Assembly (NCBI GenBank): GCA_022842725.1
Contig: JALHOZ010000013.1
Span: forward strand, 1-64,000
From: Saprospiraceae bacterium
GTDB lineage: Bacteria > Bacteroidota > Bacteroidia > Chitinophagales > Saprospiraceae
Direction: 5' to 3'
Length of the DNA stretch: 64,000 bases
Both the position numbers and the translations under genes were made by a program. How positions within the stretch are numbered: position 1 is the first letter of the stretch; each line of letters opens with the position of its first letter. Shown piece after piece: positions 40,650 through 62,198 of the stretch. The notes under the pieces were generated by a model. The model made no database searches. It saw only the letters and a program-made list of their open reading frames with translations, and was not told the DNA's origin.

Positions 40650-40875
40650 GTCGTATTATTTTAAGAATGAAAAATATAGGGACAAGACGACGGCTTACCA
40701 GGTTAAATTGTTAAAATTGTATTAACGAAATGGTGAATTTGGTTAAATATTCCCAAATATTAAAGTACAGAAAAAAGGAAGTAGGTAATAAAAATTCAAA
40801 AAAGTATAGTTCTTTTTTTCAGGCAATCTTCAAGCTGTAACATACCTGTCCGGTATTGTTTGACTTGACCAAAAT

Positions 40876-40909
40876 AAAAATAGCCCATCTGTTTGGACGG
40901 GCTATTTTT
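40876..40909 (-). terminator. Terminator of the 162-aa membrane protein gene
   Basis: AAAAATAGCCC/GGGCTATTTTT form an 11-bp perfect outer stem, continued by TC/GA after one mismatch, 18 nt past the stop at 40927. T-run present on the minus strand. Confidence 0.8.
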
Positions 40910-40926
40910 ATTCAGGAGTAAATTTT

Positions 40927-41415: not shown

Positions 41416-41467
41416 ATTATCGGTTTTAGGTAAAATCGGAAAATAATTCAGGTTTCGTTTTGAGAAT

Positions 41468-41499
41468 GTAAAGGTATAGCATAATCACGAATAAAACAA
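41468..41499 (-). promoter_or_regulatory. Promoter candidate of the 162-aa membrane protein gene
   Basis: Minus-strand -7 TACCTTTA (one base from consensus, 41475-41468) and TTG at 41499-41497, 21 nt apart. Transcription would begin near 41463. The remaining DNA to 41888 is AT-rich with nothing else recognised; ORF 41692..42042 runs out of frame into the MerR gene. Confidence 0.5.
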
Positions 41500-41888
41500 A
41501 CAAAACCTTAATATTTATTATATATAATTACCTCATTATTAAATATATAAGTTTTTAATTATACTTTTCCCTGAAAATGTTACCCTTATGTATTTACAAG
41601 TCAAATATAATAAAAAAAAACATATATCCACAAGGATTATGGTGAGCCCGGAAATGTCAACTTATCTTCAAATCCGGATTTTCAACTTATCATGGAGGAT
41701 TTTCTACAATCTAAAATAAAGAATCTTTACGGAAAAAAACTTTCCCTTTTCGTTTTTACGTTGACACCTGACACCTTTATTTTACAAAAACCGAAAAAAT
41801 TTATAAAAAAGTTAAACAGTATTTGGTTTTTCATTAAACAAAATGAAACTTTATTTGTTACGCTCCATTATTTTAGTAACACAAAAAC

Positions 41889-42770: not shown

Positions 42771-42870
42771 ACTCAACTGATGATTTTAATCTCAAGGAAA
42801 GGATTTAATAAGGAAAAAGCACCACGATAGATATATTCAGAAACCATTTTTCATAAAAAGGATAAAGAAA

Positions 42871-42899
42871 TGCCTCCAACTTTTTGGAGGCTTTTCTTT
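42871..42899 (+). terminator. Terminator 100 bp after the MerR gene
   Basis: GCCTCCAA-cttt-TTGGAGGC followed by TTTTCTTT. Confidence 0.8.
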
Positions 42900-42937
42900 A
42901 TGCAACAGTCAAATCCCAATGAGTATTTACTTCTTTC

Positions 42938-42994
42938 GGCTATGGCTTCAATCACTTTTATCGGTGTCTTGAAGCCATAGCCTTTATATTTTTG
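42938..42994 (+). terminator. Second strong hairpin with T-rich tail
   Basis: GGCTATGGCTTCAA and TTGAAGCCATAGCC are exact 14-bp complements around a 17-nt loop, followed by TTTATATTTTTG. It lies 39 nt after the previous terminator. It could end a separate short transcript or back up the first terminator. Confidence 0.65.
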
Positions 42995-43581
42995 TGTCTA
43001 ACTTTATCAGAAAAAAATCGGTAATTGGATGAAGATCTCCTTCTAAAAACCAAAATATAAACACGTACCAGGTCAAACAATGGAGGTTTTGCGTTTGTAG
43101 ACAAAAGAAGAGCCGGGTGATGAACGATATTAGTCTGGGAATAATAGAAAAACATGGTTCATCATACGCCGGCCATCTTCTGTCGATACCGTAAACCTAA
43201 TAAGAGAATTTTGTATGGCAATACATTCTTTAATGACTGCCTGTGATAAACATCATCATTTCATAAAACCATCAATGATAAATTGGATGGCTGACAAATA
43301 AAGTGACATAAACAAAAACAATCATGATGAATACATCGATCCAAAAATTTTTATTTACGTTTGATTCTATTTGTCTGTCGTGAATCATTTTTTAATCACT
43401 TTTGATATTACAAAGGTCGGACATTCTGTAATGCCCGACATCATTGAATTCACCGATTTTTTATTACAGGGTAAACACTTAATTTTGAATAGGGAAATTA
43501 CCTTATCTTTGTATCGTACATAATCATCAATTTTGTACCTTTAATATTCATTTTATTTTTATTACAATATATAATATACAT
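42995..43581. other. 587-bp intergenic region without recognisable gene
   Basis: No frame has convincing coding character (42958..43155 minus is not supported). A candidate -7 box for the response regulator lies at its right end. Nothing else recognised. Confidence 0.5.
43504..43511 (+). promoter_or_regulatory. -7 box TATCTTTG of the response-regulator gene
   Basis: Perfect consensus. TTTTG at 43483-43487 is 16 nt upstream, shorter than the usual 19-21 nt. The leader would be about 65 nt. Confidence 0.5.
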
Positions 43582-44229
43582 ATGATCAAGATTCTGATCG
43601 CTGATGACCATACCATGTTTGTAGATGGCATTGAATCCATACTGACTTCCGAGCCTGAATTTAAAATTATAGGCAGATGTTATACAGGTCCTGATGTATT
43701 AACATTTGTTCAAAAAGAAGAACCCGATATTTTGTTGCTTGATGTCAACCTGCCCGGAAAAAACGGCATTGACGTATGTAAAGAACTGGCAGTGTTAAAG
43801 CCAGCTATTAAAGTTTTGGCCATTTCAATGTTTAATGAAGAAAGTTTTGTTTCAGAAATATTAAACAACGGAGCGAAAGGATATATCTTAAAAAACACCG
43901 GACGCGACGAACTTTTTAAAGCTATCCGAACCGTAAGTAAAGGAGATTCGTATTTTTCAAAAGAGGTGACCGAAACCATTATGAAAGGTCTGATGAATCA
44001 ACGGAAAGCTTCATCCAAAACCAATACATCTATTCCAAAACTATCCCGTAGAGAAAAGGAAGTGCTTAAATTAATAGCACAGGAGTTTACCACTCAGGAA
44101 ATAGCTGACAATCTTTTTATCAGTCTGAAAACGGTAGAATCTCATCGCAGCAGTCTTTTGTCCAAACTGAACGCCAGAAACAGCGTTGGTCTGGTGAGGA
44201 TCGCCTTAGAAAATGACTTATTGGTCTGA
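43582..44229 (+). CDS. NarL/FixJ-type response regulator (215 aa)
   Basis: The receiver domain (1-120) has the acidic pair in LIADDHTMF, phospho-acceptor Asp at about 54 in ILLLDVNLPGKNG, Ser/Thr switch in LAISMF and Lys in GYILKNTG. The C-terminal LuxR-type HTH (about 150-215) reads LSRREKEVLKLIAQEFTTQEIADNLFISLKTVESHRSSL. All key residues are intact, so it should respond to phosphorylation. No histidine kinase is adjacent, so its partner is elsewhere. It ends 13 nt from the 3' end of the giant gene, transcribed towards it. Confidence 0.93.
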   Translation: MIKILIADDHTMFVDGIESILTSEPEFKIIGRCYTGPDVLTFVQKEEPDILLLDVNLPGKNGIDVCKELAVLKPAIKVLAISMFNEESFVSEILNNGAKGYILKNTGRDELFKAIRTVSKGDSYFSKEVTETIMKGLMNQRKASSKTNTSIPKLSRREKEVLKLIAQEFTTQEIADNLFISLKTVESHRSSLLSKLNARNSVGLVRIALENDLLV

Positions 44230-44242: not shown

Positions 44243-47200
44243 TTATCTTGAAGGTGGCAGCTGATGTATTATACCATTAAAATTCGATAAATAATTGGTA
44301 TTCAGCGGATGGAATAAAATCTGATAAAACAAATAATTTTTATCATCATCCGGATTGTCATATTTTATTTTTCCGTTCATATTATAATCTCCCTGAAAAT
44401 ATCCGTAACTAAAATTAAAGTTGACTACAAAATTTACATTTAACGGAGTAAAAAGAACTTCTGAAAACAACATATTCTGATCATCATCCGGATTGACAAA
44501 CTTAAGCTTCCCATTCCCATCAAAATCACCTGCCCATAATGCCATATAACCCTGTACCACATCTCTTTTCTGGGCGAGACCGGTATAGTCGTAGCCATCC
44601 TGGAGTGATGTTCCGTAATCAAAAACAGGTGTTAAAACGTTGGTAAAATCCATAAGTGGTCTGGTAGAAACTTTTTTGGACATCACTCCGAAATGATTTC
44701 TGTGCCTTAATACTATATAACAGGAATCAAGACGGATACCCGGAAATTCGACATCTGAAATACCATCCAAATCCACTACATCACCGTCTCTCTGAATCAG
44801 ACATGACCGGGTGGCCAATACCTCCGTTGAATCCCGAAGGTTTCTCAATTCTAAAAACACCCAATCCACAATCGCATTGTGATCCGACACAGCAAAAACA
44901 ATCTCCGGTTGCGGAATATTTCTCAGATTTGTCATAGCTCCTGCTCCTACATGTCTGAAGTTTGATGTGATATCAAAATAAGTCATCGGATACGAATATG
45001 GATCATTGGCCGGAAGATAATTTAATCCATCAAAAGGTTGAACTCTTAAATTATCTCTCATTAGTGGTCTGCTATCCGGTCCTCTGGCATTTCCGTTTTC
45101 AAGAAGAGAGCTTTCCAAATAAGCACGTACTTTTATCCTTAGATTTTCAAGTACCAAAATATGAGCGGTAGCTTTGACACAAACACCTTCGGAGTCACAA
45201 ATTTCATAAATTATATCCACCGGCCCTGTAAAATTGGCATCAGGTGTAAAACTCAGTAACCCATTGGGCGTGATATAATAGGCTCCTTGTGGAATCAGTA
45301 CCGGAGACAGGGAAGTTCCTGCAGCATTGGCTAAAAAAGCACGGTTTTCAGGACTTATATCATTAGAAAAAAGACCGGCTTCTGTCAGGTTTTCGTTTTT
45401 ATTGATAAAAAAGAAATCATCAGAAGCTGAAAGGGACTTTCCGGCGTCCGTATCTTTAATTACAACCACCCATCTGGCTATTCTGCAATTTAAAGGATCA
45501 TTATCGGCACAAATGCGGTAAATGACAGTGTCTGTCCCAATAAAACCGTTGTTCGGTATATATTCCATAAGCTGATCCGGTCTGAAAGTAGCTGTGCCGT
45601 GTAATGGTGGAATAAATATTTCTACAAGGTCTGGGTTGAGCAAACAGGTTGTCGAATTTATACAACGGTCATTATCAAGAACCGGTAAAACTACCGTTGT
45701 ATTTTTGTAGGTAGTCGCAAGATCAAGATTCGGAACTAAACAATGGTTCATCTTGTTGGGATCCACTACCGAAACGGTTAATGCAAATTGAGGACAATTG
45801 GTTACCATGGTCGGCAAACAAACCTGAATCATGTATCTGTACTGTCCTGGTAAATTTCCTTTGAAGGAATACCTGCCGTCTGAAAAAATTTGTAGCTGAT
45901 CAACACTGCCATCCGGTTTTGAAACGAGGACCGGTTGAACACCGTAATGTGTACCAAGAGGTAAAAGATCGTTGGTATTTAAGTTACCCTGAACGAGAAC
46001 CGATACATTGGTTACGTTAAAATCAGGATTCACACAATTAGAAATCAGAACGGAGTCACCGGTATACTGAGTCATACAGCCGGTTTCTGTTTCAATAAAA
46101 TAAAAGCCAACTTTTCCGGGAGCGAGTCCTGTTACTTTTCCGGAAGGGTTTACTGTGGCTTTAAGAACGTTGGCACTATGCCAAACTCCGGAGACATTGG
46201 ACTGAAGCTGAGTAGAATATCCGATACAAATGGAAGAAGACCCTGTCAGTGACAATACAGCTTCAGGATGAACGGTTAATAACGGAGATAAAACAGATTG
46301 GCAACCGGAAGATTGGCTGACATAATAAAACTGAACATTTCCGGGCTGTACACCAGTTATGGTTCCTTCATTTGTGATGGTAGCGACATTTGTATTGGTT
46401 GAAAACCATGTTCCTCCACCTGAAGGAATCATTGTTGTCTGGTCACCCATACAAATCCCGGTAGCTCCGTTTAAACTGATAAAAGGCGCAGCCAAAACAC
46501 TGATATTGATATTTGGAGTTGCGGTACATCCTGTAGCCCCATCCGTAAATCTTAATCTGGCAGTACCCTGATTTATTCCGGTGACCAAACCTGTAGAATT
46601 TACAGAAGCAATCATCGGATCCAGCGAAGTCCAGGTACCTCCCGTGGAAGGTATCACCTGAGTAGAACTTCCCATACAGATTATTGACTCACCGGATACT
46701 GCTGTCACCGGCCTTGGATTGACAGTTACCTGATTGACAAAGTCTACACTACATCCTGTTGAAAATTGAGTAAATCTGAAATTAGCGATCCCCGCTGTAA
46801 GACCATTAACCTGTCCATTTACATTTATTCCGGCAACCGATGGTGTAAGAGATATCCATACACCTCCTGATGTAGGTGTCAGATTGGTATTTTGGCCAAC
46901 ACAAAGAGTTGAAGGTCCGTTTAATGTAACTTGCGGCACCTCATAAACTGTAAATAAATCCGTTGAATCAGAACGACAACCTGTCAACAGGTCTGTAAAA
47001 ACAAACTTTGTATTACCTGCCTGTAGTCCTGTGATGAGTCCTGCATTATTGACAGAAGCAATAGATGGTCTGGAAGACTCCCATATTCCTCCGGACAATG
47101 GCAACACCTGTGATTGGGATTGTTGGCACACAGACATTGATCCTGAGAAAAAAGTTTGTGGTTTGTCATGTACGGTCAACCAGGAAGTTGGTTCGGAGAT

Positions 47201-50200
47201 ACAACCTGCATCAGATGTAAAAACAAATCTGGCAAATCCTCCGGTCAGTGCGGTGACCATACCATTTGAATTTACGGATGCTATATCAGGCTGTAGGGAA
47301 ACCCAACTTCCTCCTGTCGAAGGATATAGTTGTGTGGTTCCGCCTTCACAAATAACATCACCATCATCATATCCGGTGATTACATTTTCTTCTACAATAA
47401 CAGAATCAGTTGGCAAGGAAACACATCCGGAACCATCTTCGATAAATATAAATCTGGCAGTTCCCTGCTGATGAGTCGATACCAATCCGTTATTATTAAC
47501 TGTTGCCACCAAAGGATTTGTTGACAACCACGAACCTCCTGATGATGGAAATAAATTGGTTGTTCCTCCCTCACAAATTGAGTTTTGTCCGGCAACATAA
47601 GCTATAGGATACGCGTAAATGGTTACACTTTGTGTTGGATAAGACATACATCCTGTAATAGTATCCAATTTTGTAAAACTGACTGTTCCGGGAGCCAAAG
47701 CAACAACCAAACCATTTTCATCCACAGATGCAATAGCCGGATCTGATGAATACCATACACCCTGAACAGAGGATACCACCGAAGAAGAATCACCCAAACA
47801 AAGAATAGAAGGTCCGGACAAGGATGCAGATGGCAAGTCCCTGACCGTCACCGGCAAAGAATTTCCAATAAAACACTGAACGGCAAAACTTGTAAAACTG
47901 AAAGTCGCCGTTCCCGGCTGAAGTCCTGTCACGATTCCGGAAGGAGATATATTGGCAATATGGGGTTGGTTACTCACCCAAAGTCCACCTGAACCCGGTG
48001 TGAGTTGTGTGGTTTGTCCGATACATATATGATCCGGACCTAAAATATTTATTTCTATAGAATCATTAACGATGATCCACGATGATGTGTCTGATAAACA
48101 ACCGGTTTCAATCAGGGTAAATAAAAATCTGGCAGCGCCTTCTGTAATACCGGTTATGGTACCATCATTTTGTATGGTAGCTATCTCAGGATTGAGACTT
48201 GTCCATTCTCCTCCTACAGAAGGAAGCAGATTTGTGGTGGTTCCTATACAAATCTGATCATTTCCGTTCAGATTAATGGCCGGAATATCAAAAACTGTGA
48301 TTGAAACCGACCCCATACTCACACATCCCACGTCATTAGTAAACGTAAGTAAAGAAACCCCGGGTTGGAGTCCGGTCACCAGGCCATTCTGATCTACAGA
48401 AACCAAACCAGGATTGCTGCTGGTCCAAACCCCGTTTTCAGAAGGTACAAGTTGGAGCGTTTGATTTTTACATAATTGATTTGTTCCGGAATAAGTTATC
48501 GGAGTTGGTTCATGGACGGTAAAAAGATCTGATGAATCAGAAGAACAACCTGTCGTTTCACTGGTATAAATAAACCTTGTTGTTCCTTCAGCAAGAGCAG
48601 TAATCGTTCCATTCTGAGTGATTGTTGCAACCAAAGGGTTGGTGCTGGTCCAGGTTCCTCCAGAGAAAGGTTGAATGTATGATAGAGTTCCTGCACAATT
48701 GGTTCGGGTTCCTATCCAGGTAGTAACGGGTTTGGGATTTACCAAAATATGGGCCGATGTCACAACCGAACAACCATCATTATTGGTTACTGTCACGCTA
48801 AATGTTTCAGAAGGAACATCAGGAAAAACAGTTATCAAAGAAGACGTTGAATTTTGAGCATTCGCGCCCCATAAAAAAGAAGCTGCTGCATTGGCTGTTA
48901 CAAAAAGAGTGGTTGAATCTCCTTCACAAATCGTTGACTGAAATCCTGTTATGACAGGTTCAAATCTTTGATAAACCAATCCTGAAGCCTCTGCAGTACA
49001 TCCTTTATTATCTGTCACCGAAACAAAATATTCTCCGTTTACGGTTATAAAAACATCTTTGGTATTTCCTGTGAATCCTCCCGGTCCGCTCCAAAGATAC
49101 GAATAAGAAGGTGTACCTCCCTGTACAATTGCCCCTAACTGAGCGTTATCTCTCAAACAAACACTGCCATAAAAGTCAATGGTTACTTCAGGTCTGTTGA
49201 AAACCAAAATTTCAACGGGATTGACATTTGCACACCCTGTGGTAGTATCTGTATAGGTAAGATAGGTTGTGCCTGCACTTATTCCGGTAACCAAACCCTG
49301 ATCATTAACTTGTGCAATCATTGGATTGTCACTTGTCCACATACCGCTTGATGTTGGACCCACCAAAGTAACAGATTCTTCACAAACTGAAGCTTCTCCA
49401 ATCAATTCTGTTACAGGCAGTGCATGAACCGTCAAAATAGGTGATGGTTCAGACTGGCAACCCGTCAGATAATTTACAAAAGAAAAAGTAGCCGTTCCAG
49501 CCTGATATGTCACTACATTACCATTAAACGAAATGGCCGCTACTGCCGGATTTGAACTCATCCAAAAACCACCTGTTGACGGAATCAATGAGGTTGTTTC
49601 GCCCTCACAAAGGACGGTATCACCGTCAAATCCGATGGTAGGTTTGGGTTGAATAATTAATTCATGATGAGCCTGAAATAAACATTCCTGGTTTTGGTAA
49701 AAATAAGATAAGGTCACAGTACCTGCACTCAAAGCATTAACAATACCTGAATTATTAATTTTAGCTAAGGTAGTATCTGAACTCGTCCAATACCCACCCT
49801 GAACATTAGGTGTCAGAATGACATTAGAACCAATACATGTTTGACCCGGCCCTGAAATGGTTAAAATCATACTACCGGTCACCGTTATATCCTGCGTTGC
49901 TTCGGACGAACAACCTGTGGAGCTGCTTGTGAAAATAAAATTTGCCGTTCCGGAACTCAAACCTAAAATCAGTCCTTCCTGATTTATGGATGCAACGGTA
50001 GGGTTTGAACTTACCCATGTTCCGCCTGAATTAGGAAATGCCTGTGAATAATTGGTTTCACAAATAATTACAGGACCAAAAATGGTTGCTATTGGCAAAT
50101 CAAAAACGGTAATCACTCCGGAAGTATCTGAAGCACATAAATTGTTGTTTGAAACAAATATAAACCTAGCTTCCCCACCTGCTAAAGCTGTGACGATTCC

Positions 50201-53200
50201 GTTATTTTCAATGGTTGCAATATTCGGGTTCAAACTAAACCATTGGCCGGAATTCTCCGGCAAAAACCGGGTTGTATCTTCGGCACAAATAAATGAAGGA
50301 CCCGTCAATTCCGTTTCCGGTTTTTCTAAAACAGAAATTTCAATTTGAGGAACAGCGGTACAACCAAGATCATTTGTCACGGTCACCTGATATATTGATG
50401 CCGGAAAATCAGGAAAAACAGTAACTCCGGCGGTGGTAGCATTATTGGCATTATTATCCCATTGATAAGCGATAGCTGTCGGGCTGTTGACAACCAATTG
50501 AACCGGTATTCCCTCACAAACCTGCGTATTTAAAGATGCGACTAACGGTTCGTACGCCTGATAGATAAATCCTTGAGTTACTGCAGTACAACCTGCAGCA
50601 TCTGTAATCGTAAGGTAGTAATTTCCATTTTCACTTATTGTAATGGTTTGTGTATTCCAGGACATAGCTCCGGGACCATTCCATAAATAGGAATACGGAG
50701 GTAATCCACTAATTGCTACCGCTGAAATTTCTTTTTGTGGCTCAAGACATACCGATCCATTATATTGTATGTCAGCAACCAAACCACTACCTATAGCGGT
50801 TGATATCTGAGCACTATCTTTACATCCAAAACTATTAGTAACAGTAACAGAATAGTCTCCGGAATTACTGACAAACAGAGTAGGTGATGTAGCACCTGTA
50901 TTCCATAAATAGATAACACCTCCGGTTGCTTCCAGAACACCCACACCGCCCGTACAAAATATCGGCTGCCCTTCTATATCTGCCACAGGATTCGGATCGA
51001 CAAAAAAGTTGATGGTATTGCTGCAACCATCAGAAGTTCTGGTATAGGTCAATACTGCAGAACCTGCCATCAGAGATGTAACAAAACCATTATGATCAAC
51101 TGAAATAAATTGAGGTTCACTACTTTCCCAATGTCCTCCTGAAGCCGGCGATAATTGAGCGGTTTCACCCATACAGACCGTATTATCTCCTCCAAGTATC
51201 GGACTTTGAGGAATAGAGTCAATAAATGTAGATAATGAATTTGTGGCACTACATCCATTTTCATCGACCACATTAAAATCATACCATTGATCAATCGCAA
51301 GATTCTGAACAGAAACAGACGTACCAGTACCGGAAAATTGAACATTCCCGGGCATTCTGACAAGAGTCCAATTGCCGGTTGATGGCAGATTCTCTAAAAA
51401 CACGGTTCCTGTCGGCAAATAACATGTAGGTTGTACTACCCCAATTAAAGCAGGTGTTTGTGGCAATTCTTTTACTTCTATGAGTTTGGTGTTTTGGCAG
51501 CCATCAGCTGATCTGGTATAGGTAACGGTAATTATACCCGGTTCTATACCGGAGATTACGCCTTCATTTGTTATGGTCGCAACGGATACATCAGAGCTCA
51601 CCCAAATACCTCCTGTTGAAGGTAACAATTGGGTTTCAGCATTTTTACATACCAAAGAATCTCCTAAAGGCAGAGGATTGGAAGGGATTGCCTCAATATA
51701 GAGACTACCGGAAACATCTGACGAACATTCTGTTTGACTTATTATCGTAAAGGAATAATGAGTATCCGGAGTCAAATCAGTCACCAGATGAGATTGTCCA
51801 CTTCCAGATATCACCCGGCCTCCCGGTTGGATACTAATAGTCCAGGCACCAGGTCTGGGAAGATTACTGAGGAGAATACTTCCTGTAGGTTCAATACAGG
51901 TTGGTTGAATCACTACACCTAAAAATGGTGCAGGAGGGTTTGCATTTACCGTAATCAACCTTTGCGCGTCGCATCCATCGGAATCACGGACGTATGTAAG
52001 GACTGTGATTCCCGGTGCAATTCCCTGTATAAATCCGGCAGAAGTTATCGTAGCGATCGCTGTATTGGCTGATGTCCAGGTGCCTCCTGAAGCCGGATAG
52101 ACTGATGCTGTCGACCCCATACATACGTCATCATCTCCGGATAAAACCGGATCTGCAGGAATACCCTGTATAACAACTTCTTCACTCTGAACGGAAGAAC
52201 AATTATTCACATCAGATACCCAAAAAGTGTAGGTAGTTGAAATTGGCAGATTCTGAATTAAAATATTTGGTCCTGACCCCTGGTACGTTACATTTCCGGG
52301 CATTCTGACAATGGCCCAGGGACCAAATTCAGGCAAACCTTCTAATAAAACACTTCCTGAAGGAACGAGACAGGTAGGTTGAGTGACTGAACTGACAACG
52401 GGTGACAATGGGTTTTCATGTACTGTAATGGTCATGGTACTATCACATCCGTCTGATGTCCGGGTATATGTCAGTTCAACGTCTCCCCCTGAAATTCCAG
52501 TCACCAATCCACCGGAATTAACCAAAGCTATTCCGGGATCTGAACTGATCCAGACACCATTTGTAGATGGAGAAAGCGAGGTTGTATTTCCCACACAAAC
52601 TTCGGTATGCCCGGAGATTTCAGGATTAAACGGAATACTTCCTATAATAGCATTTGCTGACAATCCCGAACTGCATAAAAACTGGCTCGAGACCGAAAAC
52701 CGGTAAATTCCTTCCGGTAACAATCCCGACCACAGATAAGATAAACCAGAACCAATGATTGTGTCTCCATCGGGATAGCTGGTAAGTTTCCAATTGCCGG
52801 ATGGTGGCAAGTTACTCAGAAGTACACTTCCAAAAGGATTTGTACAGGTTGGATTTGTAGTAGTTCCGATAAAAGGAACATTTGGTACAGACCGAACCTG
52901 AAATGGTTTTGACGATCTGCAACCATCTGACGTGCGGGTATAGGTTAATGTAACCAATCCCAATCCAACGCCTAAAACAGAACCTGAGTCATTAATCGTA
53001 GCAATGGTAAGGTTTGAAGAAGCCCATGTTCCGGAATGATCGGGATATACCTGTGCATTTTCTCCAAAACAGATTTCATCATCACCGCTTAAAACCGGAT
53101 CTGGTGGTATCGGATCAATCGTTATATCTGACGAAACCGGTGAAGCACATAAAAAACTATTTCTTACTACAAAAGAATATGTTTCGTCCGGAGGAAGACC

Positions 53201-56200
53201 TGTAACTGTATAAATGGATCCTGAACCAGTAATCTGACTGTTGCCAGGAAGGGTTGTCAATGTCCAGTTGCCGGTTGAAGGCAAACCGTTTAACTTTATC
53301 TGACCGGTTGGTAAAATACATGTGGGTTGGATCACTTCACCTGTCAGAGGTGCATCAGGATTAGGAAATACAGTTAATGATATTGAATTCTGACAACCGT
53401 CTGACAACCTTACATAAGTAAATGTCACCGTACCGGGAGCTATTGCGGTCACCTCTCCGGCATGATTAATAGTAGCTACAGATGTGTTGCTACTTGACCA
53501 GGTGCCACCTGAATTGGGCAGAAAATTGGTTGTTGCACCTGTACAGACTGAAGGAGGCCCGGACAATACCGGATTGGCAGGCATACCGTTAATAATGGCA
53601 TTAGCAGACACATTTGAAGTACAAAAGTCTCCGTTTATCAATCTAAACGTGTAAGAAGATTCTATCGGTAAACCATTTATGATCATATTGGTCCCGCTCC
53701 CTTGATAAGGAATAGCATTCGGAAAGCGCAAAATTGTCCAGAATCCTGTATTTGGAAGACCTGATAATTCTATACTGCCTGTAGGTAAATAACAGGTGGG
53801 TTGAATAATATTTTCTATGACGGGTGCGACCGGATTAGCAAAAACTGTATACAACATCAAGTTGTCGCAGCCGTCTGTAGTTTTTGTATAAGTAAGTGTT
53901 GTAGTTCCCGGATTTATTGCAGATACAACTCCTTGATTGGTAATTGAGGCAACAGTAGGGTTACTACTTGTCCATACACCAGCTGTTCCCGGGTCAACAT
54001 AGGTTGTGGTACCTACACAGGTTTCTGTTATTCCTCCGATCGGAGGATCAGCAGGCAAAGGCCCAATCGCAGCCGATGCAGATAAAGAAGAAGAGCAATT
54101 ATTCTGATTGATTACCCTAAATCTGTATGATGTTGAATGTGGCAGGCCTGTGACCGTAAAAGATGTTCCGCTCCCTGAAAATGTAGGACCTGAAGGAGAT
54201 CGGGTTATCGTCCATGTTCCCGTTGATGGAAGTCCGTTTAAAACAATACTTCCTGTCGGAGGAACACACAAAGGTTGTGTCACAGTTCCGATTAATGGGG
54301 ATGTTGGCAGCGGATTAACGGTAGCTGTGCCTGAAGCTGTAGCAGAACATCCTCTTGAATCTGTCACTGTTACCGTATAAAGACCTGACATAGCGACAGA
54401 AGCGCTACTTCGGGAAACTACAGAAGCAGTAGAAGAGAAAGTGCCGGGACCTCTCCAATTATAGGTAAATGTTGGCGTACCATTATTCACGAAAGGGGTA
54501 ATCACTAAGGTAGTACCTACGCAAACAGCAGGTGCATTGACGGTCACCACGGGACTTGGATTAACATTAACCGTAACAGTTGCCGTTTTGGTGCAACCCA
54601 GATCATCTGTGACTGTCACAGTATACGTAGTAGTGGAAGAAGGCGATACAGTTTTTGTTGCTCCCGTACCCAATCCGTCACTCCATGTATAGGTAAAAGG
54701 CGCAATACCATTTGTACCCAAAGCAGAAATACTAACTGAATTTCCGGAACAAATGGTTCCACCTGTCGTGGATACATTGATTTGACAACAACGCAAATAA
54801 TTTCCTGTTACTTTTCCGTCAACATAATTTTCATTTGCAAAAGTCAATGCTGTTACTAACTGACTGGCTGTGAAAGTTGAACCACAACCACCAATTAAAT
54901 TATTGGCCTCTGTCAATAACTGACCTACCGTCAATCTGTACAGAGGTCCGGAAGCTATTCTCAGATTAATAAGATTTTCATCAGATTCACCAAAATCCGG
55001 GTCGTATAGATCAAAACCTGCACTTAGTGTTAGCGCTATCAGTTGTCCTGTAAATACGTTATTGATACAGGAAGGGTCCACCATAATACCAGGAGGTAAT
55101 AATGACGTATTTCCACCGCACGGCAAATAATCTTCTACTGCAGATGATGAAGTCAACCTGATTTTGTTGGTGCATCCTATTTCCAGTCCGCCAGGAAATG
55201 CAGCAGCAAAATTTGCGTCCCTGTATGCGCCCGGATTATCACCATTAGCCCGGGTTCCCCAACCGCCTTGGGTTTGTGTTCTGAAACCTGAACAATCTGA
55301 AGGGTGACCTACAGAAAATTCAGGCTGATTGATTACCCTGCATGATTTTGAGTCTGTGATGGTGACAGAATATAATCCGTTTGGTAATCCTGAAATATCT
55401 TCCGTAGTAGCTGAATTTGACCAAAGATAAGAATACGGAGGTGTACCATCTGTTGCGGTCAGATTGATAGTTCCGTTACTACCATTAAATGTTGATACGT
55501 CTGTAATGGTTACTGAATACAAAGGTCTTGGATTGACAACGGCTGAAATACTGTCGATACCGACACACCCTCTTGCATCCGTAATCGTAATATAATATAA
55601 ACCTGTCATAGATAAAAAAGCTCCCGTACGCATCACATGTTGGTTTGTGGCACTGAATCCGTTAGGACCACTCCATTGGTACATATAACCAGGCAATCCT
55701 GTTTGAGGTGTATTATAAATTATTAAGGTACTGTCCTGACACACTTCAGGTGCAACCAATAGGGTCTCCGGTAAAGGTCGGACGGTAAAGGTTAATACGG
55801 ACGCACAACCATCCTGATCTCTTGAATAAGACAATAATACGGTTCCTTCGCCGGTTGCGTCGACCAGACCCTCGTCTGTTATCGTGGCTACCAATGGATT
55901 TGAACTGGTCCAATTCCCACCGCTGTTTGGAAAAACCTGAGTTTGTAATCCTTCACAAATTTCAGCATTTCCAACAAGTACAGGGTCATCAGGAATTGAA
56001 GAAATCACAGCGTCTGCAGAAGATACTGACAAACAATTGTATTGATTAACAACTGAAAAGGTATATGTTTCCCCCGGTGGCAATCCGGTAATCAGGGTAG
56101 AAACTCCTGAATCCATGTACAGGGTGGCTCCCGGATTTCTGCTGATGACCCAATCGCCGTCTGATGGCAGCGCAATCAATTCGACACTACCGGTTGGCAC

Positions 56201-59200
56201 CAAGCAGGTAGGTTGTGTAATTGTTCCAACACCCGGCGCAACAGGCAACGGTCTTACGGTAAACAATAAATCGCTGCTGCAACCATCTACTGTCCTCGTA
56301 AAAGTCAACACAACATCACTGGCGCTGAGACCTTCAACAAGTCCGGTATTGTCAATATTAACCACAGAAGGGTTATTACTTTGCCAAATACCTTCAGAAG
56401 AGGGCTCAAGTTGTGTGGTTGCATTTATACACACAAAGTCATCTCCGGTAATCACAGGATTTTCCGGTATATCCAGGATAACCACTTCAGCAGAAATATC
56501 TGAAGTACATCCTCTGAAATCTGTTATTGAAAAATGATATATACTGTCAGGTATCAAATTTTGAACATTATATTCTGTGCCTGAACCATCGATTTGAACA
56601 GTTCCTGGCAAAATATTAATTTTCCATGAACCCAAGTCCGGCAATCCTCCCAAAACCACACTTCCTGTCGGAACAATACAGGTTGGTTGTGTTATATTTC
56701 CAACATTAGGAAAAGAGGGTATATCATAAACCGGAACCTGAATCACCTGATCGCAACCGTCACCATTCCGGGTAAATATAAATGTTGCCAATCCGTTTGA
56801 AATACCTGTGGCTACACCATTTGAGGTAATAGTAGCAGTCGTGGGATTCAAACTGCTCCAACTGCCGTTTACAGCCGGAAAAAATACCGCCTCAGACCCC
56901 ACACAAATTAATGAGTCCCCACTGAGAACAGGATCTGAAGGTATCGCTTGAATGACAACATTTGCAGAAACTGAAGATACACACAGATTTTGATCCGTCA
57001 CCGTAAAAGTAAAAGTGGTTGATGTGTCCAAAGAAGTCACTGTATACTCAGTACCGGTACCTGTATACGTATATCCAAAAGGAGATGAGGTTATGGTCCA
57101 CGCTCCTACTGCAGGTAAACCACTTAAATCCACACTACCGGTAGGTACGAGACAGGTTGGTTGAGTGATAACGCCCACTACCGGAGTCAGCGGTTTTGAG
57201 TACACCTCAAAAACTTTGCTGCTTTGACATCCATCCGAATTCCTTACATAAGTTAAAACAACTGTTCCGGCTCCTGCCGCAGTTACAATTCCCTGGTTAT
57301 TAACAACAGCAATAGAATTATTTGCTGAAGACCATGTTCCTGCTGATGAAGGCAAAACTTGTGCAGTTGAACCAACGCAAGCTACGGTATCTCCACTTAA
57401 AATCGGGTCAGGAGGTATTGGTAAAATAGAAACAGGAAGAGACAAAGCTGAAGCACAACCATTTGCATCTGTAACCATAAATGTAAAATCAGTTGCCGGT
57501 GTCAATCCTGTAACTGAAAATTCTGCATCAGAGCCCGTAAACGACTGACCACCAGGCAAAACCACTAATTCCCACGGTGATAATACCGGCAAACCTTCTA
57601 CCTGCACCGTTCCTGAAGGAGTAATACAGGTAGGATGAACGATAGTTCCTATTGCAGGTGGCAATGGATTATTATGAACGGTAAATGGCATTGAAGAACT
57701 ACAACCATCAAATGTTCGGGTATAGGTTATCTGGACAGTACCGGGGCTCATTCCTGTCACCAAACCGGAATTTGAAACGGTTGCGATAAGGGCGTCATTA
57801 GTTGACCAATTGCCATCCTGATTTGGAAACACCAAAGCAGATTCTCCAAGACATACAAAAGTATCACCGCTCAAAATTGGATTGGCGGGAATTGGATTGA
57901 TAAAAACATTTGCAGAAACAGATGAAGTACAACCTCTGAAATCCTGCACAATAAATGTATAATTGCTGTTTGGTGTTAAACCTGTAACTGTGTAAGAAGC
58001 ACCTGTCCCTGTGTAAAGTTGCCCATCCGGCAATCGGGTTATGGTCCAATTGGCTGAATCCGGAAGATTTTGCAAGGTAACACTTCCTGTTGGTACGGAA
58101 CATGTCGGATGAACAACAGGGCCGATAAACGGAATGCCGGGATTTGAAAAAACATCAAAACTCATGGTTTGGTCACAACCATCTGATGTCCTGGTATAAG
58201 TCAACCAAACATTTCCCGGTGAAAGTCCGCTTACCAATCCTTCATTTGTTATGGTAGCTACAGACACATTGCCCGATGACCAAACTCCTTCTGATGCCGG
58301 AAATACATTGGTTTGAGACCCAACACAAGTCGATGTATTACCTGTCAAAACCGGATCCGGAGGAATGGGTAAAATGGTCACTTCGACAACATTGGCGGTC
58401 CGACACCCGTTGGCATTGGTAACAAAAAACTGATATGTGCTGTCAGGAGTCAATCCATTGATGGTGTAGGTATTTCCAATTCCGGAATACGTTATTTCTC
58501 CGGGGTATTGTGTAATCACCCAACTTCCGGTTGCCGGTAATCCTGACAGAACAATGGTGCCTGTCGGCACTGTACAGGTAGGTTGAGTAATAGAACTTAC
58601 GATTGGCAAACCAGGAAGCGGTTGTACAACGACGACTGCCGAATCAACTGCCACACATTCAGTATATCGATGCAATGACCAATTATCTGTGAACAAAATG
58701 CCTCCTTCTGTCTCAGCAGAAATCAACAAGTGGCCTGCGTCGGGTGGAATAATAAATTCCATGGTATATTCCTGATACAGATTAGAAACAACTTTTTTAC
58801 TTGTTGCAGGAAAAATGAGTTGAGACCAACCCGGTGTATAAAGTTGAAAGGAGATTTTTGGATTTTTGTTGGTATTTGTGGCTTTAGCCCAAACTTTGAG
58901 GATATAACGATCACCAGGAATGACATCGACAGGTTGCGATATTGATGTAAATCCCGAAGATCCATCGACCACAGCAGCTCTTGTTCCTTCGTGCACGTCT
59001 GACCCTTGGGTAGTTATCGATGCTCCCGGGCCGGATATGGTCCAAAATTGGAGATTCGTAGCAGATTCAAAACCCGGGTTTAATAAAATATTTGTTGGGA
59101 TATCCGGCGTGCAGGTAGCTGTGTATGTAGTTGTTGAAACAGGAGAAAATTCTGCTGAATTTCCGGTCGTTCCGTTGGACCATTCTATGGTACCATTATT

Positions 59201-61723
59201 ACAACCTGTTGCAACTAATGTAGCCGTATCTCCGACACAAATTGTATCATTGGTTATAGAAAAAGAACTGGTATTGTAGGCTAAAACAATTTCGTCATAA
59301 TGAGAACAAGCAGGAACTTTATGCGTCAATGAGATTTCGTCAATGACTGCGGGAGGCTGTATACCTCCGGAATCGTCATTCTGCCAGGTAAAAATCAATC
59401 TTACGGAAGTACCTTTTAATTGATCAGGCAAAGAAATCATTGCTGTCTGAAAATTGTATGAAGAATGAAGATTGATATTACTAACAAGAGTCGCCCCTAA
59501 CATATTAGTGGACGGAGAAGACGGAGAACCTGCGGAAGGAGTAAAACCAACCGGTGCCGTGTAGACTAAAAGTCTGTCATGCCCACTTTCTCCTACGCCT
59601 TTCCATTTAAAACTGAGCATAATATCTTCAGCCTCAGGATGGATTATCACATCTCTGTAAAAATGTACGGTTTGGTCCACCCAATTGTAATATCCGGCAT
59701 TACCTCCAAGGAGAGAAATATAAGCACATGCTTCCCCGGATGTAGGGGATGTATTGGCACCAACTGCCCATCGGTTAAAGGTTTGATTAACAACAGTCCA
59801 ACCATTAGCACCAAAAGAATTTCCAAGCTCGAATCCACCTTCTCTTTCAGGGTCAATCAAGGTTATGGTGTTTTGTGGTCCCGGATGGTTAACCGTCCAA
59901 CGGAGTTTTGCCACATCCCCGCTTGTTATAGTAGCCGTAGTCAGTGGCGATGTTGGATTAGTGATGCTTGCATTGCCGGAAGTAACTGTCCAGACACCTT
60001 CGTTTGGTGAATCAGGAACACGGGCTGAAAGGTTAAATTGATTTTCACAATTAAATATATCTTCACCTGCTACTGCGTCAGCGCCAGACAAAACCTCTTC
60101 AAAACATAAGTCATCCAAAACAATACCGTTTGTATTACTTTGTGTTAAAAAAACAACTCTACCATTGGTATACATAGAAGCCGGTATCGTTACCTCAAAA
60201 CTATATCGTTGCCAATTCAAAAGAGCCCACGACTGACTGGCCGGTGCGATGACGTTATGAATAACCTGGTATGGATTGAGCAGATTACCCGTAGCTTCAA
60301 AAGCCATTACAAAGGAAGTATTTGACTGAACGGAGGTATTGGTAAAAGCTGCAGCATTAAAAGAAATTCTGTAGGTTTTACCGCAAATCAAGTTTTCTGA
60401 ACTTTCCCAACCTGCTATACCAAATCCGTTTCCGGCAAGGTAAATACTTTTTGATCCTGAGTTTGCTGTCCCGTTCAGATAGTACGCTCCGGTAAATGAA
60501 GACGTATTGGGTGTATTATTTTGATAAAAAGCCGACCAAACTGTTGGTGTGGCCTGATCATTTATCAAATTTGCCTGCGTACCCTGAAAAGAAAGAGGAA
60601 ATAAAGCAGCTGTACCTTGAGATTCAAGGTCACCATTGATATTTACAGAAGATAAACATGTCGGAACACAAGAAGTAGAATTTATTAAAATGACATCATC
60701 GGTTCCCGTGGTAATTCCGTCTGAAACAGTCATCCGCAAAGTAGCTGAAGAGCCTGACGGAACGTGAACTGATGTAGTTTTAGAAGTTGGAGAAAAAATA
60801 TAAGCTGTACCGCTGACTACAGACCATTGCGTTGTAAATCCTGTTGGAGGAGTTGATGTTGAGACCTGAAAAAAGGCATTATGACATTGAGATTGGTCGT
60901 CACCGGCTTCTACAGCAAAAGTATAGGTGATGATGATCTGACCTCTTCCTCCGTTTCCACCACTTGGGCTACCTGAGGTACTTCTTACTGCGCCTCCTCC
61001 ACCACCACCGGGCAATTGGCCGGCTGCTCCGCTACCCGGGCTTGTCCTTCCGTTACCTCCATTTCCACCACCTGATGGAGCGAATCCCCCTATATTCAGG
61101 TTACCATCTGAACCAACAGCTGAAAACCCTCCGGACGAACCTCCTCCGCCGGAAGTTGTAAAATTGAATGTATTTGCCCCTCTTCCTCCTGAAAATTTTA
61201 TACTACCAATTCCTTCAGATGCCAAACCGCCTTCTCCACCTACGGTACCATTTGAGGGTACCGTTTTTCCACCTTTAGCCAAAAGAAATGCTTCCGCTAA
61301 AGTGCCTGTAGAAACCCATGAATCACCTCCGTGAGCTGAATTGGAACTACTTCCTGCACCCACTTCGAGATTGAATGACTGACCTGGAACAACCGTTAAA
61401 ACTTCCCGGGAATATGCTCCTCCACCTCCACCTGCTGAACCGTCAGCTCCTGTAGTTCTTGAACCTCCTCTTCCTCCTCCGCCCCAAGCGTCTATGGTCA
61501 ATGAAGTTACTCCTTTGGGGACAGTAAATGAATATGCACCTGCAACCGTATATGTTCGGGTCACTATAAAAGGGGGTGTTGGACCCGGCACAGCAGAAAC
61601 TTTGTGTGCAAAAACGGAACTTTCAAAAAAACATAAAAGGAATAACACAACAAAATATTGTATAGCACTTACAGAAAGTAAATACTTTTGAAAGATATTC
61701 TGATATCTTTGATTTTGAGGCAT
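44243..61723 (-). CDS. Giant secreted Ig/BIG-like repeat protein (5,826 aa)
   Basis: One unbroken frame of 17.5 kb. The ATG at 61723 (MPQNQRYQNIF...) is preferred to the TTG at 61744. The signal peptide ends VFA. Order by approximate residue: Gly-rich domain 75-265; CBM-like beta-sandwiches 300-1000; six alternating pairs of modules 1034-1988; SprB/PKD-like modules; a QGGWG-type domain 2140-2315; more PKD-like modules; seven further pairs 2471-3574; PKD-like; seventeen single modules 3804-5224, with one PKD-like interruption; cadherin-like segments 5230-5520; and a C-terminus with a duplicated acidic motif (GDFDGNGKLKFVNPDDD, GDYNMNGKIKYDNPDDD). No standard type IX sorting domain is seen. It is likely a surface adhesin, matrix or gliding-type protein. 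All plus-strand ORFs inside are shadows. Confidence 0.93.
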   Translation of the reverse strand: MPQNQRYQNIFQKYLLSVSAIQYFVVLFLLCFFESSVFAHKVSAVPGPTPPFIVTRTYTVAGAYSFTVPKGVTSLTIDAWGGGGRGGSRTTGADGSAGGGGGAYSREVLTVVPGQSFNLEVGAGSSSNSAHGGDSWVSTGTLAEAFLLAKGGKTVPSNGTVGGEGGLASEGIGSIKFSGGRGANTFNFTTSGGGGSSGGFSAVGSDGNLNIGGFAPSGGGNGGNGRTSPGSGAAGQLPGGGGGGAVRSTSGSPSGGNGGRGQIIITYTFAVEAGDDQSQCHNAFFQVSTSTPPTGFTTQWSVVSGTAYIFSPTSKTTSVHVPSGSSATLRMTVSDGITTGTDDVILINSTSCVPTCLSSVNINGDLESQGTAALFPLSFQGTQANLINDQATPTVWSAFYQNNTPNTSSFTGAYYLNGTANSGSKSIYLAGNGFGIAGWESSENLICGKTYRISFNAAAFTNTSVQSNTSFVMAFEATGNLLNPYQVIHNVIAPASQSWALLNWQRYSFEVTIPASMYTNGRVVFLTQSNTNGIVLDDLCFEEVLSGADAVAGEDIFNCENQFNLSARVPDSPNEGVWTVTSGNASITNPTSPLTTATITSGDVAKLRWTVNHPGPQNTITLIDPEREGGFELGNSFGANGWTVVNQTFNRWAVGANTSPTSGEACAYISLLGGNAGYYNWVDQTVHFYRDVIIHPEAEDIMLSFKWKGVGESGHDRLLVYTAPVGFTPSAGSPSSPSTNMLGATLVSNINLHSSYNFQTAMISLPDQLKGTSVRLIFTWQNDDSGGIQPPAVIDEISLTHKVPACSHYDEIVLAYNTSSFSITNDTICVGDTATLVATGCNNGTIEWSNGTTGNSAEFSPVSTTTYTATCTPDIPTNILLNPGFESATNLQFWTISGPGASITTQGSDVHEGTRAAVVDGSSGFTSISQPVDVIPGDRYILKVWAKATNTNKNPKISFQLYTPGWSQLIFPATSKKVVSNLYQEYTMEFIIPPDAGHLLISAETEGGILFTDNWSLHRYTECVAVDSAVVVVQPLPGLPIVSSITQPTCTVPTGTIVLSGLPATGSWVITQYPGEITYSGIGNTYTINGLTPDSTYQFFVTNANGCRTANVVEVTILPIPPDPVLTGNTSTCVGSQTNVFPASEGVWSSGNVSVATITNEGLVSGLSPGNVWLTYTRTSDGCDQTMSFDVFSNPGIPFIGPVVHPTCSVPTGSVTLQNLPDSANWTITRLPDGQLYTGTGASYTVTGLTPNSNYTFIVQDFRGCTSSVSANVFINPIPANPILSGDTFVCLGESALVFPNQDGNWSTNDALIATVSNSGLVTGMSPGTVQITYTRTFDGCSSSMPFTVHNNPLPPAIGTIVHPTCITPSGTVQVEGLPVLSPWELVVLPGGQSFTGSDAEFSVTGLTPATDFTFMVTDANGCASALSLPVSILPIPPDPILSGDTVACVGSTAQVLPSSAGTWSSANNSIAVVNNQGIVTAAGAGTVVLTYVRNSDGCQSSKVFEVYSKPLTPVVGVITQPTCLVPTGSVDLSGLPAVGAWTITSSPFGYTYTGTGTEYTVTSLDTSTTFTFTVTDQNLCVSSVSANVVIQAIPSDPVLSGDSLICVGSEAVFFPAVNGSWSSLNPTTATITSNGVATGISNGLATFIFTRNGDGCDQVIQVPVYDIPSFPNVGNITQPTCIVPTGSVVLGGLPDLGSWKINILPGTVQIDGSGTEYNVQNLIPDSIYHFSITDFRGCTSDISAEVVILDIPENPVITGDDFVCINATTQLEPSSEGIWQSNNPSVVNIDNTGLVEGLSASDVVLTFTRTVDGCSSDLLFTVRPLPVAPGVGTITQPTCLVPTGSVELIALPSDGDWVISRNPGATLYMDSGVSTLITGLPPGETYTFSVVNQYNCLSVSSADAVISSIPDDPVLVGNAEICEGLQTQVFPNSGGNWTSSNPLVATITDEGLVDATGEGTVLLSYSRDQDGCASVLTFTVRPLPETLLVAPEVCQDSTLIIYNTPQTGLPGYMYQWSGPNGFSATNQHVMRTGAFLSMTGLYYITITDARGCVGIDSISAVVNPRPLYSVTITDVSTFNGSNGTINLTATDGTPPYSYLWSNSATTEDISGLPNGLYSVTITDSKSCRVINQPEFSVGHPSDCSGFRTQTQGGWGTRANGDNPGAYRDANFAAAFPGGLEIGCTNKIRLTSSSAVEDYLPCGGNTSLLPPGIMVDPSCINNVFTGQLIALTLSAGFDLYDPDFGESDENLINLRIASGPLYRLTVGQLLTEANNLIGGCGSTFTASQLVTALTFANENYVDGKVTGNYLRCCQINVSTTGGTICSGNSVSISALGTNGIAPFTYTWSDGLGTGATKTVSPSSTTTYTVTVTDDLGCTKTATVTVNVNPSPVVTVNAPAVCVGTTLVITPFVNNGTPTFTYNWRGPGTFSSTASVVSRSSASVAMSGLYTVTVTDSRGCSATASGTATVNPLPTSPLIGTVTQPLCVPPTGSIVLNGLPSTGTWTITRSPSGPTFSGSGTSFTVTGLPHSTSYRFRVINQNNCSSSLSASAAIGPLPADPPIGGITETCVGTTTYVDPGTAGVWTSSNPTVASITNQGVVSAINPGTTTLTYTKTTDGCDNLMLYTVFANPVAPVIENIIQPTCYLPTGSIELSGLPNTGFWTILRFPNAIPYQGSGTNMIINGLPIESSYTFRLINGDFCTSNVSANAIINGMPANPVLSGPPSVCTGATTNFLPNSGGTWSSSNTSVATINHAGEVTAIAPGTVTFTYVRLSDGCQNSISLTVFPNPDAPLTGEVIQPTCILPTGQIKLNGLPSTGNWTLTTLPGNSQITGSGSIYTVTGLPPDETYSFVVRNSFLCASPVSSDITIDPIPPDPVLSGDDEICFGENAQVYPDHSGTWASSNLTIATINDSGSVLGVGLGLVTLTYTRTSDGCRSSKPFQVRSVPNVPFIGTTTNPTCTNPFGSVLLSNLPPSGNWKLTSYPDGDTIIGSGLSYLWSGLLPEGIYRFSVSSQFLCSSGLSANAIIGSIPFNPEISGHTEVCVGNTTSLSPSTNGVWISSDPGIALVNSGGLVTGISGGDVELTYTRTSDGCDSTMTITVHENPLSPVVSSVTQPTCLVPSGSVLLEGLPEFGPWAIVRMPGNVTYQGSGPNILIQNLPISTTYTFWVSDVNNCSSVQSEEVVIQGIPADPVLSGDDDVCMGSTASVYPASGGTWTSANTAIATITSAGFIQGIAPGITVLTYVRDSDGCDAQRLITVNANPPAPFLGVVIQPTCIEPTGSILLSNLPRPGAWTISIQPGGRVISGSGQSHLVTDLTPDTHYSFTIISQTECSSDVSGSLYIEAIPSNPLPLGDSLVCKNAETQLLPSTGGIWVSSDVSVATITNEGVISGIEPGIITVTYTRSADGCQNTKLIEVKELPQTPALIGVVQPTCYLPTGTVFLENLPSTGNWTLVRMPGNVQFSGTGTSVSVQNLAIDQWYDFNVVDENGCSATNSLSTFIDSIPQSPILGGDNTVCMGETAQLSPASGGHWESSEPQFISVDHNGFVTSLMAGSAVLTYTRTSDGCSNTINFFVDPNPVADIEGQPIFCTGGVGVLEATGGVIYLWNTGATSPTLFVSNSGDYSVTVTNSFGCKDSAQISTAIGSGLVADIQYNGSVCLEPQKEISAVAISGLPPYSYLWNGPGAMSWNTQTITISENGNYYLTITDAAGCTAVTQGFIYQAYEPLVASLNTQVCEGIPVQLVVNSPTAIAYQWDNNANNATTAGVTVFPDFPASIYQVTVTNDLGCTAVPQIEISVLEKPETELTGPSFICAEDTTRFLPENSGQWFSLNPNIATIENNGIVTALAGGEARFIFVSNNNLCASDTSGVITVFDLPIATIFGPVIICETNYSQAFPNSGGTWVSSNPTVASINQEGLILGLSSGTANFIFTSSSTGCSSEATQDITVTGSMILTISGPGQTCIGSNVILTPNVQGGYWTSSDTTLAKINNSGIVNALSAGTVTLSYFYQNQECLFQAHHELIIQPKPTIGFDGDTVLCEGETTSLIPSTGGFWMSSNPAVAAISFNGNVVTYQAGTATFSFVNYLTGCQSEPSPILTVHALPVTELIGEASVCEESVTLVGPTSSGMWTSDNPMIAQVNDQGLVTGISAGTTYLTYTDTTTGCANVNPVEILVFNRPEVTIDFYGSVCLRDNAQLGAIVQGGTPSYSYLWSGPGGFTGNTKDVFITVNGEYFVSVTDNKGCTAEASGLVYQRFEPVITGFQSTICEGDSTTLFVTANAAASFLWGANAQNSTSSLITVFPDVPSETFSVTVTNNDGCSVVTSAHILVNPKPVTTWIGTRTNCAGTLSYIQPFSGGTWTSTNPLVATITQNGTITALAEGTTRFIYTSETTGCSSDSSDLFTVHEPTPITYSGTNQLCKNQTLQLVPSENGVWTSSNPGLVSVDQNGLVTGLQPGVSLLTFTNDVGCVSMGSVSITVFDIPAINLNGNDQICIGTTTNLLPSVGGEWTSLNPEIATIQNDGTITGITEGAARFLFTLIETGCLSDTSSWIIVNDSIEINILGPDHICIGQTTQLTPGSGGLWVSNQPHIANISPSGIVTGLQPGTATFSFTSFAVQCFIGNSLPVTVRDLPSASLSGPSILCLGDSSSVVSSVQGVWYSSDPAIASVDENGLVVALAPGTVSFTKLDTITGCMSYPTQSVTIYAYPIAYVAGQNSICEGGTTNLFPSSGGSWLSTNPLVATVNNNGLVSTHQQGTARFIFIEDGSGCVSLPTDSVIVEENVITGYDDGDVICEGGTTQLYPSTGGSWVSLQPDIASVNSNGMVTALTGGFARFVFTSDAGCISEPTSWLTVHDKPQTFFSGSMSVCQQSQSQVLPLSGGIWESSRPSIASVNNAGLITGLQAGNTKFVFTDLLTGCRSDSTDLFTVYEVPQVTLNGPSTLCVGQNTNLTPTSGGVWISLTPSVAGINVNGQVNGLTAGIANFRFTQFSTGCSVDFVNQVTVNPRPVTAVSGESIICMGSSTQVIPSTGGTWTSLDPMIASVNSTGLVTGINQGTARLRFTDGATGCTATPNINISVLAAPFISLNGATGICMGDQTTMIPSGGGTWFSTNTNVATITNEGTITGVQPGNVQFYYVSQSSGCQSVLSPLLTVHPEAVLSLTGSSSICIGYSTQLQSNVSGVWHSANVLKATVNPSGKVTGLAPGKVGFYFIETETGCMTQYTGDSVLISNCVNPDFNVTNVSVLVQGNLNTNDLLPLGTHYGVQPVLVSKPDGSVDQLQIFSDGRYSFKGNLPGQYRYMIQVCLPTMVTNCPQFALTVSVVDPNKMNHCLVPNLDLATTYKNTTVVLPVLDNDRCINSTTCLLNPDLVEIFIPPLHGTATFRPDQLMEYIPNNGFIGTDTVIYRICADNDPLNCRIARWVVVIKDTDAGKSLSASDDFFFINKNENLTEAGLFSNDISPENRAFLANAAGTSLSPVLIPQGAYYITPNGLLSFTPDANFTGPVDIIYEICDSEGVCVKATAHILVLENLRIKVRAYLESSLLENGNARGPDSRPLMRDNLRVQPFDGLNYLPANDPYSYPMTYFDITSNFRHVGAGAMTNLRNIPQPEIVFAVSDHNAIVDWVFLELRNLRDSTEVLATRSCLIQRDGDVVDLDGISDVEFPGIRLDSCYIVLRHRNHFGVMSKKVSTRPLMDFTNVLTPVFDYGTSLQDGYDYTGLAQKRDVVQGYMALWAGDFDGNGKLKFVNPDDDQNMLFSEVLFTPLNVNFVVNFNFSYGYFQGDYNMNGKIKYDNPDDDKNYLFYQILFHPLNTNYLSNFNGIIHQLPPSR
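46050..50310 (-). repeat. Array of about 17 single A-type modules
   Basis: Each unit is of the form GPSxxCxGxxTxLxPSxGGxW, then SxNPxxASVNxxGxVTGLxxGTAxFxFT and GC. B modules are absent. One PKD/SprB-like interruption lies near 49.2-48.8 kb. Confidence 0.8.
50990..58625 (-). repeat. Alternating two-module protein repeat array (13 pairs, in two blocks)
   Basis: Module A, about 73 residues: PVLSGDxxxCxGxxxxxxPxxxGxW, then SSNPxVATIxxxGxVxGxxxG and TYTRTSDGC. Module B, about 85 residues: TQPTCxxPTGSVxLxGLPxxGxW, then GSGTxYxVxGLxPxxxYxF and CxSxxSAxVxI. A and B alternate without exception for six pairs (58.6-55.8 kb) and again for seven pairs (54.3-51.0 kb). Pair length is about 157-159 residues in both blocks. 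Confidence 0.85.
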
Positions 61724-62198
61724 TATTATATTATTAGTATACAAAAAAACGTAAACCTGTATGGTTTTATAAAATCATACACTGCTAATATAGGTCGTAA
61801 AATGAAAAGGCCAATCGGGATTTTATGGCACTACTAATCACTAAGACACCAATTCGTTCTGATACACCTATCTACAGTGTGTGATTCCATTCAAAATTGG
61901 TACTGTTAAACATTAACGACTACTCTACTTACCTATTAATTAACGATGAATTATTGAAAATAAAACCATTTATATATTACATTTTTATTTAATATGTCAA
62001 AAGTAAGCAGTTTTTTTTAATCCCGATGTGTTTTTAACAATTTTTTTAATCTTTATAGGTTTGTTTTTCTTTTTTGTTTTTCCTCATTTGCAAAAATTGG
62101 TATGATTTTTCCTGATATAAGTTGTAATCAATGATTCCAAAGGATAAATCCCATACATCTTTTTCTCATCTTTACATAAACACGAAACCAAAATAAAT
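61724..62198. other. 475-bp divergent intergenic region
   Basis: AT-rich, no gene. A minus-strand TACTTTTG octamer lies at 62005-61998 but would leave a 270-nt leader and has no -33 partner. Nothing else recognised. Confidence 0.45.

Follow-up and report, generated by a model that had tools for sequence, protein, structure and literature searches.

Secreted giant fibres of Ig-like modules are widespread among Bacteroidota, and their two-Cys, fixed-length modules have found no explanation in the literature we searched. Among the described systems of this kind, GhpA of Aureispira sp. CCB-QB1 (PDB 9flp, 9fls, 9flu-9fly, 9g8b) is a giant Ig-like chain of 5898 aa, and GhlA of Litorilinea aerophila is a 6596-aa single chain that arranges 49 Ig-like domains in a polar fibre of ~180 nm, but is built from DUF11 domains, forms a three-fold filament and belongs to Chloroflexota (PMC13319060). 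The 7651-aa Mobiluncus adhesin (PMC10619420) likewise combines giant Ig-like repeats with covalent cross-links, although these links (ester, isopeptide and disulfide) are intradomain. Here, we analyzed a 64,000-nucleotide stretch of a Saprospiraceae contig (the window), from a genome of 4.6 Mb in 87 contigs that encodes many SprB-repeat proteins, a content that, with the T9SS translocon SprA, very probably marks one of the Bacteroidota. Its giant gene encodes a chain comparable to GhpA, in which a module B strictly alternates with a module A before A continues alone; such strict alternation is not evident in GhpA. With moderate confidence, we read the product as a secreted giant surface fibre in which a disulfide-stapled B-A spacer peculiar to this lineage precedes a solo-A stalk of greater age.

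The minus-strand open reading frame at 44243-61744 comprises 5833 codons if a TTG is taken as the start and 5826 if translation begins at the ATG at 61723, and the predicted secreted protein (44243-61723, 5826 aa; all of its features below are on the same strand) shares both of its ends with two paralogues in the same genome. A probable Sec signal peptide, read by eye from a hydrophobic core and the end SSVFA, occupies translation residues 8-46 (61607-61723). The head region that follows contains glycine-rich and carbohydrate-binding-like domains, including a glycine-rich N-terminal domain assigned to PF21722 (60923-61549; Pfam E = 3e-11). Block 1 consists of six B-A pairs of 158 aa (residues 1046-1993; 55766-58609) and block 2 of seven (residues 2482-3587; 50984-54301). 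Between them lies an insert (54302-55765) of Ig-like and SprB-type modules, recognized by SprB (PF13573) and Ig_7 matches and by BLAST, together with a "QTQGGWG" domain. This domain carries the motif CSGFRTQTQGGWG and gave no match in Pfam. Past block 2, an Ig-like interlude (50321-50983), conserved across the giants at up to 56% identity in G006, a genome of the same genus, precedes the solo-A stalk. Sequence analysis placed five solo A modules at 49193-50320 and twelve at 46037-48730, on either side of a two-domain insert of 155 aa (48731-49192) that is present in nearly all related giants at 34-52% identity. The conserved C-terminal region of 597 aa (44246-46036) comprises Big_9-like domains and a terminal domain, and is found in 17 other giants at 42-53% identity. 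On the opposite strand, the end of a gene for a LuxR-type response regulator (43582-44229) and the stop codon of the giant gene are 14 bases apart.

The periodicity of the B-A array proved stricter than the approximate 158-residue pair length given in the preliminary description. Thirteen B anchors, at residues 1055-1845 and 2491-3439, are spaced within each block by exactly 158 residues, and all 13 copies of the unit consist of B (83 residues) plus A (75 residues). Aligned with MAFFT, the 13 units fill 158 columns with zero gaps, 26 of them invariant, including all four Cys. Every module has two Cys, and their spacing in block 1 repeats as 57, 26, 50, 25 without exception, so that anchors, alignment, Cys spacing and the structural model described below all confirm the strict alternation of two-Cys modules first noted in this 5,826-residue protein. 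The limits of the array needed slight adjustment, with the units spanning 50984-58609 (previously 50990-58625). The roughly 17 later A modules lacking B are exactly 17, of ~75 residues each (residues 3809-5236), arranged as 5 + 12 around the two-domain insert. Despite this regularity, mean amino-acid identity among the 13 units is only ~43-44% and DNA identity 51%, and Tandem Repeats Finder detected no DNA repeat in the B-A region. The proposed fibre length of several hundred nanometres looks overestimated: assuming ~3.7 nm per domain, scaled from the 49 domains in ~180 nm of GhlA (PMC13319060), the 26 B and A modules would extend over ~95 nm and the whole chain over ~0.2 μm.

We next considered the identity of the two modules. 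Single A modules score 28 bits against Big_2 (PF02368), passing the Pfam gathering cut-off of 22.8. The four single B modules scanned stayed below the Pfam cut-offs for fn3 (best 22.7 vs 25) and Ig_7 (21.7 vs 27.3) and gave no match to the SprB model; both fn3 and Ig_7 exceed their cut-offs once summed over an array. Pfam offers no dedicated model for B. The nearest PDB sequence to B is the module at residues 492-565 of F. johnsoniae RemZ (8gl8; E = 2e-14), which lies outside the resolved part of that structure, where the CTD alone is well resolved. B is likewise related to B-only arrays with a step of 81-91 residues, and the B-A compound unit is absent from Bacteroidota proteins with SprB-type, Ig_7 or B-only arrays. 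Structure predictions used sequences from the window only. An ABAB segment (query: block 1 residues 1362-1677; alignment drawn from both blocks) was predicted by AlphaFold2 with a mean pLDDT of 95 as two separate seven-strand sandwiches per unit, which makes B a fold of its own rather than a part of A; the latter outcome would have counted against the original description. By this model B is FN3/Ig-like, the FN3 likeness coming from the prediction together with a weak profile match. An AAA model of the twelve-module stretch reached a pLDDT of 94, and the alignment for AAAA was assembled from disjoint windows. Searched against solved structures with Foldseek, the ABAB model ranked GhpA fragments as seven of its top eight matches (TM 0.52-0.57), with one more at rank 11 (0.46), indicating a similar geometry of the tandem Ig-like stalk; GhpA fragments again ranked high with the AAA model, alongside nucleoporin 210.

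To place the array in context, we compared it with sequences from the same genome and from relatives. The two paralogous giants (open frames of 7495 and 6318 residues) have their N- and C-terminal regions in common with the window protein; their arrays run to 18 and 4 complete B-A pairs, respectively, each array closing with one further B, at a step of 158 residues with a single exception of 157. Among the genomes searched, with 9 to 45 candidates scored per genome, strict B-A alternation occurs only in these three giants. Elsewhere B, searched with a profile made from a five-row subset of the 13 B modules, turned up singly or in B-only arrays with a step of ~81-91 residues, and A in A-only arrays with a step of ~74-80. 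B-less giants in G006 and in two further genera (g3 and g64) match the C-terminal 600 residues at 42-51% identity and also have the solo-A stalk, in most of them with the 229-residue step of its insert. Immediately ahead of its B-A array, the 6318-aa paralogue contains a distinct tandem array with an 85-86-residue period (L043; G000:C30, residues ~2160-3020), each unit of which has two Cys (TLCINTALSP ... TGGCG).

The position of the Cys in the models bears on how they may pair. One Cys (C1) lies in the A-B loop of the sandwich and the other (C2) in the F-G loop (B Cys 12/69 and A Cys 95/145 in the numbering of the model query). In Ig/FN3 sandwiches these two loops occupy opposite ends of the fold; where such sandwiches follow one another in tandem, the A-B loop of one module is turned towards the F-G loop of its successor. 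We therefore examined Cys losses in 97 arrays with 759 modules, with the caveat that relatedness among the genomes leaves the arrays partly interdependent. Both Cys are present in 735 of the 759 modules and both absent in 8. Across neighbours, C1 of one module and C2 of the next are both present in 649 cases and both absent in 8, with C1 alone in 5 and C2 alone in 0. All clear single losses among the sequences read (L062, L070, L178, L179 with four arrays, L184, L186, L188 and L189; a small set of ~11 losses in total, four of them from one protein) drop C1 and keep C2, and are located at the end of an array or ahead of a module that has no C2. Reading the modules that retain C1 yet lack C2 traced them to shifted alignment windows, to PA14 insertions that interrupt the F-G loop, and to modules standing alone or first in their array. 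Past the end of the array, the following domain offers a Cys at the right distance in 73 of 81 arrays that end with C1, as opposed to 2 of 11 that end without it (Fisher p = 1.3e-6). None of the first modules in the arrays counted lacks C2, so a staple model requires a partner from the preceding domain, and such a Cys is present at about the right distance in 80 of 92. The window contains one relevant case, a SprB-type module (55310-55525) that immediately precedes the non-Ig insert, lacks C1 and keeps its F-G-loop Cys C2135, as read from the sequence and the Cys list, and fits the staple rule. In a 1410-aa frame of another genome (L184, G586), the modules of a Big_2 array at first contain Cys and then have none, and one C2-only module marks the changeover.

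These data, though independent losses are few, suggest that each module is bonded through its A-B-loop Cys to the F-G-loop Cys of its successor, because in the arrays counted C1 is never lost while the following module keeps C2. If instead the two Cys of one module bonded together, the array would be a string of independently stabilised beads, for which the near-constant retention of the Cys as a pair (735 modules with both, 8 with neither) could be cited. We regard this as unlikely: a bond between opposite poles of one sandwich is improbable, every clear single loss would leave a free Cys, and the polar losses at array ends are what neighbour bonds, and not self-closed modules, would be expected to produce. 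The proposal that the Cys form disulfides that stiffen the fibre is therefore plausible as to the disulfides, with the partners sought between neighbours rather than within each module. In the literature we searched, we found no description of disulfides between the modules of such arrays, which does not imply that there are none, and functional disulfides at the cell envelope of Bacteroidota have been described in another setting, for SprF-GldK (PMC12635249). If our reading of the losses is correct, the bonds would be interdomain, unlike those of the Mobiluncus adhesin.

The exact unit length could also be taken as a sign of youth, the array having arisen by recent stepwise tandem duplication that copied B-A pairs before single A modules, the order proposed in the preliminary description; the units of paralogue C27, with up to 91% protein identity, would point the same way. 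We consider this very improbable and rejected it on account of synonymous saturation: identity at fourfold-degenerate sites in the 5826-aa protein is 0.34 against 0.31 by chance, and the region is devoid of DNA repeats. Within this protein, A and B identities are uncorrelated (Mantel p = 0.49), a lag effect is absent, and the blocks of six and seven show no register (p = 0.14 at offset 0), which partly matches the outcome, random order and no block duplication, that would have counted against the original interpretation. Duplication of the six-unit block into the seven-unit block was considered separately and not retained: in the tree, pairing at offset 6 is confined to a handful of A modules and absent from B, and permutation gave no significant result. 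The sequence in which pairs came first and single units later is contradicted by the B-less giants of G006 and of genera g3 and g64, in which the solo-A stalk, its 229-residue-step insert and the C-terminus occur. As these relatives have the stalk and B-A arrays were found only in the source genome among those searched, the pairs look like a later addition, and comparison of the sequences makes it the likelier order that the stalk is old and the array was added in the source lineage, the alternative being loss of the array in other lineages. In a tree, the B-paired A modules of all three paralogues split from all 51 solo A modules (SH-aLRT 96). The similarity in size to GhpA (5826 vs 5898 aa), the structural match of the repeats and the presence of a T9SS translocon might finally suggest a true GhpA orthologue that builds a heptameric grappling hook for ixotrophy. 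This, too, seems improbable. The N- and C-terminal regions gave no GhpA match in single-sequence searches, nor did a C-terminal profile; an N-terminal profile matched GhpA 5540-5684 weakly; repeat-level matches amount to just 2-23 bits each; and the T6SS sheath protein VipB was not found in the source genome. Orthology by terminal domains was accordingly rejected, as the ends are not homologous by the searches run, and with no VipB-type sheath found either, the possible grappling-hook role is unsupported beyond the stalk.

In paralogue C27, by comparison, A and B identities are correlated (0.61, Mantel p = 0.0005), supporting duplication of B+A as one unit there. Among its units (L041; G000:C27, contig 34545-44000), protein identity reaches up to 91%, and the pair with this value has a fourfold identity of 0.47 vs 0.32 by chance. 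Strong protein conservation thus lies over DNA that is almost randomised, as though varied codon use were maintained as a guard against recombination.

Together, we favour a fibre in which the N-terminal glycine-rich and carbohydrate-binding-like head would be carried on a long Ig-like chain that ends in the conserved C-terminal domain, which would hold the fibre and probably serves in sorting or anchoring, with the B-A array serving as a lineage-specific spacer of compound units, FN3-like (B) and Big_2 (A), ahead of the older stalk. The A-B-loop Cys of module i would bond the F-G-loop Cys of module i+1, and neighbours stapled in this way may form a stiff rod resistant to proteases and force. 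For Bacteroidota at large, we are moderately confident that Big_2 and SprB/FN3-type arrays are continuous disulfide-stapled rods, and that the source lineage fused the two types into a constant 158-residue unit, a length held across the 13 units while their DNA, and large parts of their protein sequence, drifted apart. The neighbour-staple rule, if true, predicts stiff rods and makes the end of a rod readable from sequence, as a module without an A-B-loop Cys. The 35 B-A units of the three paralogues, nearly all of exactly 158 residues, constitute a natural series on a length constraint that operates without DNA repeats.

The product is most likely a secreted surface fibre of roughly 0.2 μm, with a probable role in adhesion. 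The T9SS translocon component SprA is encoded in the source genome (SprA_N E = 1.7e-112), from which we infer export by this route, although the C-terminus matched none of the sorting domains TIGR04183, PF18962 or the CHU_C type. The last 320 aa (44246-45205) likewise have no match in PDB or NCBIfam, and the last part no relative in Pfam. Two copies of a GDxxxxGKxKxxNPxDD motif in the terminal domain are dockerin-like and possibly Ca2+-binding. The last 152 residues recur in 40 of 248 family genomes in all; where giant genes cluster, the identity is 40-60%, and in other places the match is weaker. In 18 giants that were aligned, the sequence stops only a few residues from a conserved Q-x-P, as a tag for sorting or anchoring would. 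The 320-aa domain is a candidate secretion or anchoring domain of a kind not yet described. At several loci of relatives (L162-L169; G011:C73, G072:C31, G295:C73), three to five giant genes in tandem (1500-5300 aa) have one common C-terminal domain. In the source genome, a fourth locus (G000:C1:280159-280596 and G000:C1:284229-286067) carries the C-terminal domain of the giants at 54% identity, near weak B-like modules.
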